A stretch of DNA of 39,135 bases from a virus. A program made the position numbers and the translations under genes. Below, piece by piece: positions 3,042-19,069 of this stretch; within the stretch, counting starts at the first letter, position 1, and every line of letters begins with the position of its first letter. The notes beneath the pieces are model-generated. The model was given only the letters and a program-made list of their open reading frames with translations, did no database searches and was not told the origin of the DNA. The stretch is from the IMG/VR virus record IMGVR_UViG_3300029908_000065, positions 1 through 39,135 of that record; one strand, 5' to 3'.

Positions 3042-3713
3042 TTAAGTTGGCGCAAGTTCAATCCCCCACGATCCGTCATCCCATCCTTGAATGAAACTGT
3101 TTTGGATGTCCCATCCAAACAGCGGGCCAGTGTTAGCCGGCACGACATATTCAGTGATCCCCACACCTTCGGGCTTAAGCGGTAGGTATCCGCCCCTCAA
3201 AAGCGCGAGTGTCAGTGAGTCAAGCACAGCTCCTTGGACAATGAAAGTGTAAGTCATATTTTGATTGTCCTGAATCAAAATATTGAAGCCTGGGAAAAGC
3301 TGACTCCAAATCGTGTACGCGCCCTCCGTCGTCCCATCCCAGTGATTTGCAGCGATTCGAGCTAAAAGGAGAGTCAGGTAAACGTCATCAGGCAGACTGA
3401 CAAGAGACGTAGAGTCGTCCACGCTCTGCCATATCCCAGAATCCCAACCGACCGATGCAGCTCCATCCCAAGTGAAAAAGATTCCCGTGATGGGAACTTG
3501 TAATATTCGAGAAACCCCTACCCACTCACCGATGATATCGAGCTGATTTCCAACCGGAGGAGTAGCTAGGTCAAAAAGAGGAATCATCGAACTCATCAAC
3601 GCCTGAACCTGTACGGGCACGCCTACGCACGCTGCGATCACGGCCGCAAGGTTGGGTTGCTTTTGGTGTTCAGAAGTGAGGAGATTCTGATAATCCTGTA
3701 CTGTGTTACTCAT
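3042..3713 (-). CDS. DUF2612-type baseplate protein
   Basis: A 223-residue protein beginning [20 protein letters not shown], which matches the start of DUF2612 phage proteins, followed by [14 protein letters not shown]. These proteins sit next to baseplate J in small contractile phages and are functionally comparable to P2 tail protein I, linking the baseplate wedge to fibres. The family link is from sequence pattern; the role is by analogy. Its ATG overlaps the stop of baseplate J by 4 bp (ATGA). A terminator-like hairpin follows it. Confidence 0.85.
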
Positions 3714-5197
3714 GTGACAATCACCACGTTCGAAGCCAACGAAATAGGGATGGCGTTGAAAGCAAGGTCAATGTTTCCACTTCCAAAACCGCCGCCTGAG
3801 AGAGTTGAACCCGAAAGCGAAAGGGCGCTTGAAGACTTTGCAAGCGTGATCGCGTCGCCGGCTGGCCCTGGCTGTGCCGCCGTAACGGTGAGGATAAGCC
3901 CCGTCGTATCGAGCATGTAGGTACAAGTCACCAAGTTGACATCGGTTGAAGCGTTGAGGAAGGCAAGCAGGTTTGCGGCCGTTACTGTGTCGGATGCTCC
4001 GATTTTGACTTGGTTCCCGGTTGGCGTTCCGGACACAAACGTGATGGCAGTGCCCGCGATCGTAAGCGTGTCGCTGTTTGCCGGATTTGAGCCGAAGGTA
4101 ACGGTAGCGTCTGCGCACTCGGCAAGCTCAATCGAATCGACAAGGAACGTGCCAGCTTGAGGAGTACCGTAGAGATAGGCCGCCGCATAGAGCTGAGTGA
4201 TGATCACGCTACCACCGATTGGATAAGCTTCGATCGCTGCCGCGACGGCCGCCTGAATAAGCGCTTCCGTGCTTGTGACCCAGCCCGTTCCCGGCGTGAT
4301 AGTGACTTGAGCTGCGATCAGATTGGTGTTGGGAATAAAGAAGTTGATCGTGATCGGCATCCCGCGAGAGTCCGTGGTGGATACACTGGTAGTTCCATAC
4401 GTTTGAGTGCCGGGAGTCTTGTTTTGCTGGATGGCCGCCGCAATCGCGTTCACGCTTCCGCCCTCAACCACGAATGAAATACTGTGCGGGGGAAGGCCGT
4501 TACCATCTGTGATATCCGTGTCATTCTCATAACCGACCGCTTCGCTGACACCCGTGACATTTTGAATGGCACCTAGGGTTGCTTCAAATACCGTCTCAGC
4601 CGGAAGTGAAGTCGAGTTGATTTGTCGATCGCGTAAGGCCGCGTCCGTCTCAACGGGAGCGCCCAGAGTTGCCGCTGCCGGGTTGTTCACGGTTTGCCAA
4701 CCTTGCGTCGGCGTGAAGATGCCCGTGATAGTATTCTCAAGCGCTGCAACCGCGCCCGGCTGTGCCGCCGTTGCCGTGACAGTGATTGTGCCGCTATTTG
4801 GGATCGTCGTGGTAGGAATGATCCATTGTTGTTGAAGTGTGTCGATCGCAATCCCGCCCGTGATGAGCGTCCCGGCCGTTCCACCGATCACAACGGGCAC
4901 CGTGGAGTTTGTCGGGACAAGGCGAGAAATTCCGTTGATCTTCACCACGCGAGAAAGTCCAACTCCCTGAGCCGTGACGGGCGAAAAGGAATTATAGGTG
5001 CCGGCACCCAGAGCGGCCGTATCGTAAAGAGCTTGCGCGATGATCGCAAGAAATTGTCCATCTTGAGAGTCGTCGCCTAGATAAACGTCCGCACCATAAA
5101 TCCCTTTGTATTGTCCCGTCAACCACGAGAGAAACGCCGGATAATCTTCATAGTTGTATCCGGTTGCGTCGATCCAAACTAAGTCTGTGATGTCCAT
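3710..5197 (-). CDS. Baseplate J-like wedge protein with inserted domain
   Basis: A 495-residue protein. The N-terminal two-thirds fit the baseplate J family (Mu gp47 type): GATAxG-like regions, [13 protein letters not shown] around residues 183-195, and the alpha/beta part ending near VIITQLYAA at 331-339. This family forms the baseplate wedge. Residues about 364-470 hold an extra beta-rich domain ([44 protein letters not shown]) that interrupts the C-terminus and closely resembles a domain inside this phage's sheath protein. After it the J-like C-terminus resumes ([11 protein letters not shown]). It overlaps the next gene by ATGA and starts 12 bp after the gp46-like gene. Confidence 0.88.
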
Positions 5198-7612: not shown

Positions 7613-8148
7613 CTAATCCCCAATGCTTGGCCGCCCGTATAGAGCGCCGACTGTTTTTGGCCTACGGGTTGCGTGCTTGCGTTACTGCCCCGATTCTTAA
7701 GCTGAGACGCGGACAGAGTGCCCACGATGATCGGCACGGTGATAATCTGCTTGAAAGAGCAATTGATGGAGAGAATATTTTCAGTCTTCTTTTCCGTCGT
7801 CACCCCGAGCGCTTTGAAAAGCATCGAAGAGTAAACGCGCTTTGGGGTTGTCACGACAAACGGTGTGAAGCTGCTTTGTAGCGCAAGTAAGTTTTGATAA
7901 ATCGCGCTCAGGCTTCCGCCCGTGAAGATTGAAGTGCCAAAAAGAATTTGTATGGAAAGAACTACGGGCTTTTTGAAGGCATGATCCGAGATGGCCGCGC
8001 CTTGCTGCACGGGCTGATCAGTAATTTCAATCTCATCAATCGTATTTTCGGTGAGTGTAACGTAGCCCGAAAAGATTTGATTGGTAAGCCCGAAAGAGCG
8101 AGACGGCCCGATACCAAGTAGGGTTTCGACTTCATTGAGAATGCTCAT
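7609..8148 (-). CDS. Dit-like tail protein
   Basis: A 179-residue protein. The stretch VTLTENTIDEIEITDQPVQQGAAISDHAFKKPVVLSI is typical of the N-terminal domain of Dit-like tail initiators (ITDHPVE.GA.ISDH in relatives). The C-terminus is Ser/Gln-rich. It lies between tape measure and plug genes, as expected for a protein that connects the tail tube end to the baseplate hub. Four-base overlaps on both sides suggest coupled translation. Confidence 0.78.
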   Translation of the reverse strand: MSILNEVETLLGIGPSRSFGLTNQIFSGYVTLTENTIDEIEITDQPVQQGAAISDHAFKKPVVLSIQILFGTSIFTGGSLSAIYQNLLALQSSFTPFVVTTPKRVYSSMLFKALGVTTEKKTENILSINCSFKQIITVPIIVGTLSASQLKNRGSNASTQPVGQKQSALYTGGQALGIR

Positions 8149-10499: not shown

Positions 10500-12308
10500 T
10501 TACTGGTTAACCGCGACGTTGATTTGCGCCGTCTGGGTTGCGCCAGCGAGTTTGAAAGCCACTTGGAAAGGAACGGACTGCCGATTCTGGCGAGCCGTTT
10601 CGCTCTGGCTCGAAATCGGCGGGGCATAGATATAGTAGCCGAGCTTCAAGAACTGGCCGGTTTGCAGCGAGCCGAATCCATCCGCGTTCCACTGGCCCGG
10701 AGCGCCAAACCCATTGGTAACGAATTGCTGGCAAACACCGCTGATGGCATTCGAGTAAGTGTTAGAGCCCGAGTCCGTTTGCGGGACCTTGGTTGCCGTC
10801 GTGTAATTCGCATTGTAGACGGCCGTCTGCATCGCATTTTGAAAGGCGTTGTCACCGAACGTCTCATCAATGTAGGCCCCTCCGCAACAAATGCCATACT
10901 CGATAATGCTCGTGTCATTGTCGTACTCGACAAACACATTGCAGTTTTTGCCCTGAAGTACGGTTGCTTGCTCATTGTCCAAGTTTTCCGCCGCAACTCC
11001 CGGCATCTGCTTGTACATCAGAGTGAGGAACGTATTGTTGCCGGACAGATTCACCGTGAAAAGCCGCCCAAATATGCTCGCCGCCGCGTAGGGGTTAGTG
11101 CTGCAATAGGTGATAAACGTCTGATCATAACCCAAAGCCTGCAACTCACTGGCTAGATCGGTGTTGACCACGCTGCTCAGCACATTGGTGTTTTGAGTCG
11201 TGATCCCATACAGCCGGGTGATCACGTCCGCTTCGATGAAGGGCGCGATTTCAAGCGCATCACTCTGAGTCGGCATCACGCTAGACGCGAACTTGAGCCC
11301 ATACCAATTCGGGTCCAGGGCATCAAGCGCGACGACGGCCTGTAGGGCGCTTTCGGCCGCATAGCCAGGCACCAAGGGAAGCGCAACCGCCGCCGTGAGG
11401 CCGAGCAGGGTCGAGACATCTTGGCCCGATGCCGGCGATGTGGCATAGCCTACGCTGGACGGGTTGGTGCCGCCCGCAAGCGTGCCGCCCGAAATCGTGA
11501 TCGCCGAGCTGGATTTCGCAAGGGTGTAAGCATTGCCCGCCGTGCCCGGCGTGACGGCCGTGCAAGTGACCACGCCCGAAGCGACTGAATAGGTCATGGG
11601 AGTCAGGTCGGCGTTGCTGGATGCGGAAAGGAACGTGCACAGATTGACGGCCGTAAGCGCGGCCGACGTTCCAATCAACACCTCATTGCCAGTCGGACTA
11701 GAAGAGACAAATTCGATGGACAGGCCATTCACCGTCACCGTGTCGGTAGCGGTAGGATTGCTTCCGAAGGTGATCGTGCCCGTCGCATCCACGCCCGCGC
11801 CGGTTGTCGCGCTCGTGATTTCAAATTGCGAGCCTGTCCACACGCAGGTGCCAGCACCCGAGAGGGCAGTGGTCACGTCCGACGCAACGGCGTTCAGATT
11901 GGTAGCAGTTGAGAAATTCAAGCCCGTGATCGTGTGCGCGGTGCCATCAATCGTGATATCGAATCCGCCCGAAGTGATCGTGAGGAAATTCCCAAGGGCC
12001 GCCTGCACCGCTGACAAGAGTTGACCTTGTAGCATGGCCGCTGCCGAAGTGCGAATCCACCGGCCAACCGTGCAATTAACAGGCTGGGGGGATTGAGCAT
12101 AGTACAGCTCAGCCGCTTTGAATTCCGGCGCGTTAACACCCAAGTCCGAAGCGATACCGGACAGACTCGTATAAAACCTTTCGCGCTGTAGTCCGTTGAT
12201 GACGTTTGAGTCACCGAGGATGAGCAGAGTGTTGAAAGTTCTTCCAAGAGCCCCCGGCTGGGTCAGACTCACCGTCACATTAATCAAGCGTGATACGTCA
12301 AGAGTCAT
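10500..12308 (-). CDS. Tail sheath protein, DUF3383 type, with inserted domain
   Basis: A 602-residue protein. The N-terminus (INVTVSLTQPGALGRTFNTLLILGDS), the conserved middle (YGITTQNTNVLSS, FLTLMYKQMPGVAAENL) and the C-terminus (FGSLQTGQFLKLGYYIYAPP, ARQNRQSVPFQVAFKLAG) fit the DUF3383 contractile sheath family. Residues about 176-280 carry an extra beta-rich domain ([46 protein letters not shown]) that is also present in baseplate J. Residues 109-170 may be a further inserted module. Inserts in sheath proteins usually project outward. The protein is longer than a plain DUF3383 sheath because of these inserts. Confidence 0.92.
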   Translation of the reverse strand: MTLDVSRLINVTVSLTQPGALGRTFNTLLILGDSNVINGLQRERFYTSLSGIASDLGVNAPEFKAAELYYAQSPQPVNCTVGRWIRTSAAAMLQGQLLSAVQAALGNFLTITSGGFDITIDGTAHTITGLNFSTATNLNAVASDVTTALSGAGTCVWTGSQFEITSATTGAGVDATGTITFGSNPTATDTVTVNGLSIEFVSSSPTGNEVLIGTSAALTAVNLCTFLSASSNADLTPMTYSVASGVVTCTAVTPGTAGNAYTLAKSSSAITISGGTLAGGTNPSSVGYATSPASGQDVSTLLGLTAAVALPLVPGYAAESALQAVVALDALDPNWYGLKFASSVMPTQSDALEIAPFIEADVITRLYGITTQNTNVLSSVVNTDLASELQALGYDQTFITYCSTNPYAAASIFGRLFTVNLSGNNTFLTLMYKQMPGVAAENLDNEQATVLQGKNCNVFVEYDNDTSIIEYGICCGGAYIDETFGDNAFQNAMQTAVYNANYTTATKVPQTDSGSNTYSNAISGVCQQFVTNGFGAPGQWNADGFGSLQTGQFLKLGYYIYAPPISSQSETARQNRQSVPFQVAFKLAGATQTAQINVAVNQ

Positions 12309-15404: not shown

Positions 15405-16379
15405 TTAGATGCCGTCGCCGTAACCAGCAGTTTCCGGGTACACGAATTCGACATGGCCAAACGCCCAGAGGTAAGGCGCGGTGTAGCGAATCCCCTGGTA
15501 GTAGGCCGTTTCACGACGGATGGGCACCATGGGGAAGCGCACGCGGTTTTCCGCATTGGTGTAGGCCATCATGCGATCCGCGCCAGCCGCGCCACGTCCA
15601 GTGAGCCACTTGATGGGCTGGATGTTGAGCGCCCTGCCGTTGATGCGAAGTGCGATGGAATTATCTTCCAGGTACTTGAGCACCGAGCAGTTGCCGGCCG
15701 AGCTGACTTTCATCGTGGCAAGCAGGCCGAACTGGACCGGCGGCACGCGCAGTTCGCCGGGGCAAACCGCGTAGGCCGAAGACAGCCAGACGGAAGTGAG
15801 CAGCGTGTTGACATCGAGCAGGATTTCGTCCGGGGTTTTGTTCGCCCACTGAGTCGATCCGCTGATGCCCGCCGCGACGTTGCTGGCCGTGACCAAAGAC
15901 GAATTGAGCAGGCCGGTTGCGTTGACTTCCGTCGCACCGATATACACCATTTGATCGGTGTTCATCTGATAGAGGAGATTCAAGGCATCGGTCTTCTGCG
16001 CGTCGATCGACGTGCCAAGCTTCTGCGACCGCTCCAACTCAACCGACGTGAAGCTAACTTCACGAGCGAGCAGGTGGAGGGGCAGGACTTGCTTGGACCC
16101 GTCAATCGAGACTTGCCCGATTGCCGTGGTTTCCGGCGAGATGAACGGCATGTTGCCGCCGCTCGCGCCGTTACCGTTGAGGAGTGAGCCGCCCGCCGCG
16201 AAGGCAGACTGGATGAACGACGTACTTTCGTCGCTCATCGAGACGCCTGGGCGCAGCTTGATGTCACGCCCCCAGCTCACTTCCAAGAGCGGCATGTAGA
16301 GCCGCTTATCGAGATTTTCGAGCTGATTGACGTAGAAGGCTAACGCCGAGTCACGAGTCTTAAACGATTTTCTGGCCAT
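15405..16379 (-). CDS. Major capsid protein, DUF2184 type
   Basis: A 324-residue protein of the DUF2184 phage capsid family: FYVNQLENLDKRLYMPLLEVSWGRDIKLRPGV at the start, EVSFTSVELERSQKLG in the middle, MNTDQMVYIGATE, and at the end YYQGIRYTAPYLWAFGHVEFVYPET. It is expected to have an HK97-like fold. It lies after the protease-scaffold fusion and decoration genes as usual. The ribosome-binding site is AAGGGA. No insert or truncation was noticed. Confidence 0.92.
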   Translation of the reverse strand: MARKSFKTRDSALAFYVNQLENLDKRLYMPLLEVSWGRDIKLRPGVSMSDESTSFIQSAFAAGGSLLNGNGASGGNMPFISPETTAIGQVSIDGSKQVLPLHLLAREVSFTSVELERSQKLGTSIDAQKTDALNLLYQMNTDQMVYIGATEVNATGLLNSSLVTASNVAAGISGSTQWANKTPDEILLDVNTLLTSVWLSSAYAVCPGELRVPPVQFGLLATMKVSSAGNCSVLKYLEDNSIALRINGRALNIQPIKWLTGRGAAGADRMMAYTNAENRVRFPMVPIRRETAYYQGIRYTAPYLWAFGHVEFVYPETAGYGDGI

Positions 16380-16408
16380 TTTATTTTCCCTTTCTAGGAG
16401 TTAGCCGG

Positions 16409-16933
16409 TTATTGAGCGATACGGATTTCGCCGTATCCATTCGAGTCCACGCCATCAGACGCCCAGGTCACGGTGCCAACCACGGTGCCGGTGAGGGCCA
16501 CGTTGTTGCCGCCATTCTAGCCGACTTCAAACTGCCCGGCAAGATGGCCGGCGGATGCAGTCACGCAGACGTAGGCTTGCTGGCCACGCACCGGGATGCC
16601 GCCGCCCTGAACAAACACGGAAAGGTATCCGCGAGTGGCCAGGCCGTTGATTTCCGATTGGTTGGGCTGGAAGGTGTCCACGGCTTCATTCACGCTGCTC
16701 TGGCTGATGCCAGGGACTGCGCGGGCCAGGACACCGCAAAAGAGGGAAGCCGTGTCGGAAGCAACCATGGGGGTCACGCCCGTCACGCCATTCGAGCCAA
16801 CCGCGTATTTCATCGGAAGGCCAAAGTTGGCGGGGAACGGAGTCACCAATTGGGTCGGCTCAACATTGGTTTCGTCCGGACGGGTGATATCGCCAGGAAC
16901 GCCGGACGGGGAATTGTAAAGATATGCAGTCAT
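16409..16933 (-). CDS. Capsid decoration/cement-like protein with in-frame TAG
   Basis: The frame starts at ATG 16933 (MTAYLYNSPSGVPGDITRPD) and reads 138 codons to TAG at 16517-16519. The same frame then continues for 35 codons to TAA at 16409, encoding NGGNNVALTGTVVGTVTWAS and finally YGEIRIAQ. The latter is the normal ending of small cement-type proteins, whose last strands follow a GQFE-like motif. So the TAG interrupts the final beta-strands. Possible readings are translational readthrough giving 138- and 174-residue forms, suppression by a tRNA, or a substitution (e.g. from CAG, GAG, AAG or TGG). The gene lies between protease-scaffold and major capsid genes, where decoration proteins are usual. 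Confidence 0.75.
16517..16519 (-). other. In-frame amber codon in decoration gene
   Basis: The codon context is GGC TAG AAT GGC. The downstream frame is open and protein-like to TAA at 16409-16411. The second interrupted gene in the window (34396-34590) has AAA TAG AAT GTG, sharing TAGAATG. Confidence 0.8.
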
Positions 16934-16942
16934 GTGATTCTC

Positions 16943-18307
16943 TTACTTTCTGCCGTAGTGGGCGGCGTTAATTTCGTTCATTTTTTCGGGCGTCATGATC
17001 GTCGAGCTACCTTCGCCGTCTCGGGCTTGAAAGCGCTTGGCGTCCTTGGTTTCTTCCAACCCCGTTCCCCGCGAAGCCTTGAGGCATTCGCTGGTAGCGA
17101 TGAAAAGGGTGTTGATGCGCTCTTTGTCTTTCGAGTCGAGCGTGAGCTTTTTGCCGCCCGTGAAGCTATTGATGACTTGTTTGCCATCTTTAGTCTTATA
17201 GGCGACTTCAAGCGCTTTGGCGCGGGCGTCTTCACCCTTGGCAACCTTGAGGCCGGGTGCCAGGATTTCGATGCGAGCCTTGAGGTCTTGCGCGGCGGAA
17301 TCACCCGTCATGCTTTCTTCACCCTCTTCGCCCTCTTCATCTTCAGACTCTTCCGCGTCTTCATCCTCATCTTCGGATTCATCAGCGTATTCATCTTCAT
17401 CGCCGGCCTTGTTTTCGAGGAGTTTCGCAAGCGCCGTTTCGACGGCTTTCATGCGAGATTCGATCGAGGATTTTTCTTCCTCATCTTCATCTTCGGATTC
17501 TTCCTCTTCATCCTGCTCGGCGGCCTTTTTCTTAGGCGCGGGCTTTTCTTTAGATTCTTCCTCTTCATCTTCGCCCATGTTTTCGGCGAAGCCCTTTACG
17601 ATGGACATCATTTCATCCATCATGCCCTTCAGTTCGTCATAAGAGTCGGCGTCTTTGGCCTTGTCCTCTTTCTTGTCTTCTTTGAGCGCTTCATCAACAA
17701 CCTTCGCGCCGAGCTTTTTCTTCAACTTCTGAATCAGAGTCTCTTTCTCATCCATCTGGGTATCTCCTTTGTGATCGTTAATTGCGTAGGTCGGCCCCGC
17801 GCGTCCTTCATCCACCAAGGCAGTGTGATTGCCGATAATGTTGAATTGTCGCCCCTCACCTTCCCCAGTCTGCTCATACTCGCATTCATACCCGCAAGAG
17901 ACTTCACGCAGTCCGTTCTTAACGAGTTGAATAGCCATCTCCGAAGTGATGAGTAAATCCGCTTCCAAAACCTCTTCACCGTCGTCGTCTTTTTTAGCGG
18001 CCTTGCGCACATTCTGAACGGTGCCATGAGTGAGGTCTTTCCAGTTCTTCGGCCCCACGAAATCTTCGGGGTGACGAATCGTGATCGACTTGCCTTGAAA
18101 GCTTGCAATCGTCTGGGGGCGAAACACGTCCTTCGGATCGCGATAAACTTCAATCGTACCCTCTGGGCCAGCTTCAAGCGGAACTTCTGCACGCCCATAC
18201 GTCTGCCATCCCGTGCGTGCGATCGGCACGCCCAGACAAAACAGAAAGCCTTCCGGCGTCTCTGCAATGTTTTCGGACAGACGTGAAGGGGTGTAGAATT
18301 TCGGCAT
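16943..18307 (-). CDS. DUF2213 prohead protease fused to acidic scaffold
   Basis: A 454-residue protein. The N-terminal 180 residues fit DUF2213: GFLFCLGVPIARTGWQTYGR, VYRDPKDVF, SITIRHPEDFVG, GLREVSCGYECEYE and NHTALVDEGRAGPTY. By analogy with other prohead proteases, the His in IRHP or NHTAL and the Ser in REVSCGY are candidate catalytic residues; this is inference. Residues about 185-345 are an extremely acidic, Glu/Asp/Lys-rich coil, as expected for an internal scaffold, and the C-terminal 100 residues form a more ordered domain. The fusion suggests a self-cleaving scaffold. It starts 3 bp after the upstream gene. Confidence 0.85.
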   Translation of the reverse strand: MPKFYTPSRLSENIAETPEGFLFCLGVPIARTGWQTYGRAEVPLEAGPEGTIEVYRDPKDVFRPQTIASFQGKSITIRHPEDFVGPKNWKDLTHGTVQNVRKAAKKDDDGEEVLEADLLITSEMAIQLVKNGLREVSCGYECEYEQTGEGEGRQFNIIGNHTALVDEGRAGPTYAINDHKGDTQMDEKETLIQKLKKKLGAKVVDEALKEDKKEDKAKDADSYDELKGMMDEMMSIVKGFAENMGEDEEEESKEKPAPKKKAAEQDEEEESEDEDEEEKSSIESRMKAVETALAKLLENKAGDEDEYADESEDEDEDAEESEDEEGEEGEESMTGDSAAQDLKARIEILAPGLKVAKGEDARAKALEVAYKTKDGKQVINSFTGGKKLTLDSKDKERINTLFIATSECLKASRGTGLEETKDAKRFQARDGEGSSTIMTPEKMNEINAAHYGRK

Positions 18308-18310
18308 GAA

Positions 18311-19069
18311 CTACTTCAGTTGGCTCGCGAGAGGGAGCATCACGAAACGCATCCCGATCACCGTGTTGTTCGCCGGTGCAGTTGCGACAAGCGTGGTAGT
18401 CGAGCTTGAGGTTGCGCCTAGGACGCGAATCAAGAGCTGTGCGCCGCCCGTGGCACTGACAGACTGATTCGGGTCACCAACAATATCGGTGTACAGCGTG
18501 CCCGAGCCCGTTGCGAGGGGAGCTTGCACAGTGCCGGTGCCCGTGGTGGGCGTTGCCGTGATGGCAATGAAGCTCTGGCCGGGGCTAGGGGTGAGCCCAA
18601 GCGGAAGGCCAAGACTCTGCCAACCGGCCGCCGTCGTGGTGCCCGCTGATGTGATGACGTAGGGATTGCCGGGCGTGAGTGCCGATGTGACGTTGATCGA
18701 ACTTCCCGAAAGAGGAGAGACAAAACCAGAATACCCGCCGACGTAGCCAAGCCAGTTCGATGCGAGTTGAACAATGATGTAGCCACTCGCTGGGTTTGGA
18801 TTGCTTGCGGCGGGCGTTGCACTCGTGTGCATGTAAACAGCCGCGATGCCGTTGCCTTTCACGGAGCGGACACCCAGCCCATTCCCATTCGTTGAGTCTA
18901 CGATGAACGTAGCGTCGATTTGATTTGAGCCGCCGACAATCGAGTTGATCGACGTTTCACCGAACTGATTTTTGAGTACCAGAGAGGGGTAGGGAGGTGA
19001 GTAGGTAGCGGCGGAAGCCGAGGTGACTGCCAGCAAAAGCAGCGCGAAAAGTTTCGAAATTTTGATCAT
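18311..19069 (-). CDS. Head-region protein with signal peptide, function unknown
   Basis: A 252-residue protein. The start MIKISKLFALLLLAVTSASA followed by ATYSPP is a clear Sec signal peptide with an AXA cleavage site. The mature part is Gly/Ser/Thr-rich beta protein with GIAAVYMHTSATPAASNPNP, SGYIIVQLASN and a C-terminus APANNTVIGMRFVMLP. Similar long beta proteins occur among head genes of uncultured phages, often without a known role. It lies between the Mu F-like head gene and the protease, both cytoplasmic, so export is surprising. Surface display in the infected cell or an N-terminal hydrophobic anchor are both possible. It ends with TAG. Confidence 0.72.
   Translation of the reverse strand: MIKISKLFALLLLAVTSASAATYSPPYPSLVLKNQFGETSINSIVGGSNQIDATFIVDSTNGNGLGVRSVKGNGIAAVYMHTSATPAASNPNPASGYIIVQLASNWLGYVGGYSGFVSPLSGSSINVTSALTPGNPYVITSAGTTTAAGWQSLGLPLGLTPSPGQSFIAITATPTTGTGTVQAPLATGSGTLYTDIVGDPNQSVSATGGAQLLIRVLGATSSSTTTLVATAPANNTVIGMRFVMLPLASQLK

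Follow-up and report, generated by a model that had tools for sequence, protein, structure and literature searches.

In the A1 protein of phage Q-beta, a leaky UGA stop ends a complete coat protein, and a long extension follows it. The structural cement proteins of phages are represented in Pfam by, among others, PF22758 (the E217 gp24 / Pam3 gp6 family) and PF23982 (the XM1 gp53 family). A report on E217 (PMC10329688) includes a description of gp24 as a likely cementing protein whose trimers sit at three-fold and quasi-three-fold axes, and part of a report on Pa193 (PMC11042391) describes the decorating protein gp25 in similar terms. Among the matches listed for the literature on readthrough and decoration proteins, no case combining the two appears in titles or abstract openings. 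Here we consider a capsid cement (decoration) protein gene in a 39,135-nucleotide viral sequence, IMG/VR record IMGVR_UViG_3300029908_000065 (the window, meaning the whole stretch of DNA that was analysed). Its frame carries an internal TAG, and a first-pass annotation had proposed that readthrough would place a minor long form of the protein on the virion. We regard it as highly likely that this is an ordinary tailed-phage cement gene whose product has a full length of 174 residues, in which the TAG is an isolated single-base difference, either an error or a rare loss-of-function allele.

The gene occupies positions 16409–16933 on the minus strand, and its assignment comes from translation, profile matches and sister contigs; it has 174 codons in those contigs and is interrupted here at codon 139. 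Translation of the minus strand of 16391–16933 gives an ATG at 16933, 138 residues and a TAG at 16519–16517. The same frame then continues as NGGNNVALTGTVVGTVTWASDGVDSNGYGEIRIAQ, 35 sense codons (16412–16516), before a TAA at 16411–16409, which confirms the exact span of the in-frame TAG and open frame annotated earlier. The chance of 35 open codons after a stop is ~0.23 at the window's composition, and 11 of 29 hand-picked ORFs of the window have at least 35 open codons after their stop. An open frame of this length is therefore common by chance, and the weight falls entirely on the homology of the tail. Profile matches identify the neighbors, both also on the minus strand, as a major capsid protein gene downstream (PF09950, PHROG 264; 15405–16379) and a DUF2213 / head maturation protease-like gene upstream (16943–18307).

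Other features of the window are recorded here for their own sake. A plus-strand open frame of 514 codons (16412–17956) overlaps the cement and protease-like genes in antisense orientation and is probably a by-product of the composition of the coding strand. The head gene cluster also contains a 252-codon minus-strand ORF (18311–19069) whose start resembles a signal peptide by eye, and for which no Pfam family was found at E 0.01. A DUF3383 (PF11863) protein (10500–12308) and a long protein (3710–5197), encoded on the minus strand in the same gene cluster, have in common a stretch of ~93 residues (51% identity, E 6e-21), as though two virion proteins had each received an insertion of the same small domain.

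Both Pfam cement families match the product above their curated cut-offs (27 in each case), and all scores rise when the TAG is read through: from 52.0 bits for the 138-residue form to 54.6 bits for PF23982, from 33.8 to 37.7 bits for PF22758, and from 55.0 to 62.8 bits for PHROG 563. With read-through, the PHROG 563 and PF22758 matches extend near the profile ends. The predicted model of the sense-codon form, built with 39 sequences, has a pLDDT of 84 and places strands at residues 144–146, 155–157 and 167–172, all beyond the TAG position. The predicted model of the 138-residue form has a pLDDT of 34; it used nine trimmed sequences, and the two values are not comparable. In the fold comparison, and in the Foldseek ranking as well, the best solved matches to the sense-codon model are chains from capsid entries of XM1, FCWL1, T1, Pam3 and E217, with alignments that start at model residue 1 and end at 173 or 174. 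Among them are XM1 chain 7kmx_a (Z 15.5, model residues 1–174), Pam3 chain 8hdt_G (Z 14.6) and E217 chain 8frs_f (Z 12.3). A single-sequence search of the solved structures gave no match at E up to 10, and a profile search of them gave no significant relative, just two chance-level matches (E 0.65 and 1.1); the structural match came solely from the fold comparison. The identification as a decoration protein made in the first-pass annotation is borne out by PF22758, PF23982, PHROG 563 and the fold comparison.

Relatives were sought by anchoring on the major capsid gene, which yielded 54 loci, 49 of them with at least 300 bases upstream (L026, L039, L040, L052 and L055 were left out for having less). 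Each of the 49 has a cement frame that continues without interruption to a similar C-terminus; this count includes L025, whose 5' end is missing at a contig end, and the distant loci L057, L058 and L061, which carry a diverged version of the C-terminus. The alignment holds 39 sequences: 11 of the 49 loci were omitted, ten as duplicates or near-duplicates of retained rows (L008, L056, L011, L016, L018, L019, L021, L037, L053 and L058) and L025 on account of its frame, truncated at the contig end. L005 was added. Every aligned sequence continues for 28–39 residues beyond the TAG site. The mean frequency of the majority residue is 0.60 before the site and 0.61 after it, and L147, W157, A158, D160, G161, D163, E169 and R171 are each present at 92%–97%. 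The site itself is variable (Ser in 19/39, Thr in 9/39, and other residues, Ala and Asp among them, in 11/39). From the site onward, dN is 0.08–0.25 against six relatives of 65%–74% overall protein identity; dN/dS is ~0.07–0.18 in the four computable pairs, with dS saturated for L005 and L048. Judged from these sequences, the tail is under purifying selection. Outside the capsid-anchored loci, 56 pattern matches turned up in contigs of bacterial and archaeal genomes, with no relative encoded in any of these stretches, and 28 of 50,697 phage records were matched, none covering at least 80% of the query.

The impression that the post-TAG residues look like the end of a capsid cement protein is thus upheld by the profiles, the 39/39 alignment and the full-length fold match; the protein-like character of the tail exceeds what chance would give. 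The opposite prospect, that homologues might stop at the TAG position, is ruled out by the 39-sequence alignment and by the 49 unbroken loci. From alignment and model together, the tail is the normal C-terminus of the cement protein and not an optional extension.

Contigs L006, L007 and L008, all three from other IMG/VR datasets, are nearly identical to the window around the gene and have TCG (Ser) where it has TAG. Over 9,961, 7,043 and 5,546 compared bases, respectively, they depart from it at base 16518 alone. A scan of the viral collection with base 16518 left free returned exactly these three contigs, although such a scan may omit records very near the window, and further copies, including some with TAG, may exist. 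Of the four assemblies with sequence at this position, the present record is the only one with TAG. The first-pass annotation had looked to raw reads for a sense codon; independent assemblies, taken in their place, show one in three of three cases. Elsewhere in the window, outside the TAG site, three more near-identical contigs were compared: L067 and L073 do not differ from it, and L066 differs at two bases, 7725 and 3263. L067 agrees with the window at 7725, so that change is L066's own. In the encoded proteins, the L066 differences at 3263 and 7725 are Gln/Lys and Val/Met. In all, the six sister contigs, whose names point to five datasets, allow 38,906 bases to be compared and together span 23,332 positions of the 39,135-nucleotide window, with three variable sites. 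Isolated single-base differences thus do arise among sister contigs, and a random substitution in the chosen ORFs would create a stop in ~3.7% of cases, or ~1 in 27.

If the TAG were a programmed or leaky amber stop, the 138-residue form would be the main product, and a 174-residue form would make up a few per cent on the virion. The frame past the TAG does remain open, and what it encodes is a genuine protein C-terminus. A leaky stop of the Q-beta A1 type should, however, be conserved in close relatives, and this one is missing from 3/3 near-identical contigs and from 49/49 capsid-anchored loci. Nor is the short form a complete protein plus an extra piece, since conserved residues and three of the fold's predicted strands lie beyond its end, in a family where 28–39 residues follow the site in 39/39 sequences. 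The minor long form proposed by the first-pass annotation finds no parallel in relatives that encode the long form only and in near-identical contigs with a sense codon, and we think programmed readthrough very improbable. About equally improbable is that the TAG is the true majority allele, partly suppressed in the host, with virions that carry mostly truncated or no cement and some full-length protein; this would be a recent readthrough state, unseen in the sister contigs. Least credible of all is a general recoding by the phage or its host, in which every TAG would specify an amino acid. Apart from the open frame past the TAG, nothing speaks for such recoding, which would be marked by avoidance of TAG as a terminator and by its use as a sense codon in many genes. 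Instead, TAG ends four of the 29 chosen ORFs as an ordinary terminator (TGA ends 18 and TAA seven), an ARAGORN search of the whole window found no tRNA genes, and relatives do not agree on a residue at the site. Amber recoding was rejected on the stop usage and on the lack of tRNA genes in the window.

We therefore return to the ordinary cement gene. On this reading the full-length protein has 174 residues, the 35 codons after the TAG encode the conserved C-terminal part of its fold, and the TAG at codon 139 is either a mistake of sequencing or assembly or a null allele that is rare in the sampled population. Truncation at this codon would be expected to spoil the fold. Because only one of four assemblies has the change, and because it falls in a part of the protein that is under constraint, we infer a modest tilt toward error over a null allele. 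The earlier suggestion that the gene is mutated fits the sister-contig evidence; a sequence error fits it too, and is the reading to which we lean.

In a metagenome contig, one anomalous base can be enough to mimic programmed readthrough. As ~3.7% of random substitutions make a stop, cases of this kind should turn up regularly when many windows are scanned, and comparison with sister contigs offers a quick screen against them.

Set beside the known systems, the locus resembles Q-beta A1 in being a capsid-type gene with an open frame past its stop. Unlike the Q-beta stop, which follows a complete coat protein, the stop here breaks a conserved fold and is not common to relatives. The likeness to phage cement proteins is closer: the product scores above the curated Pfam cut-offs for PF22758 and PF23982 and also matches PHROG 563, the gene keeps the gene order of its relatives and adjoins the major capsid gene, and the model aligns over nearly its whole length with the XM1, Pam3, T1, FCWL1 and E217 chains. 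It departs from known cement genes in having its frame cut by a single TAG at codon 139, in the present record alone.
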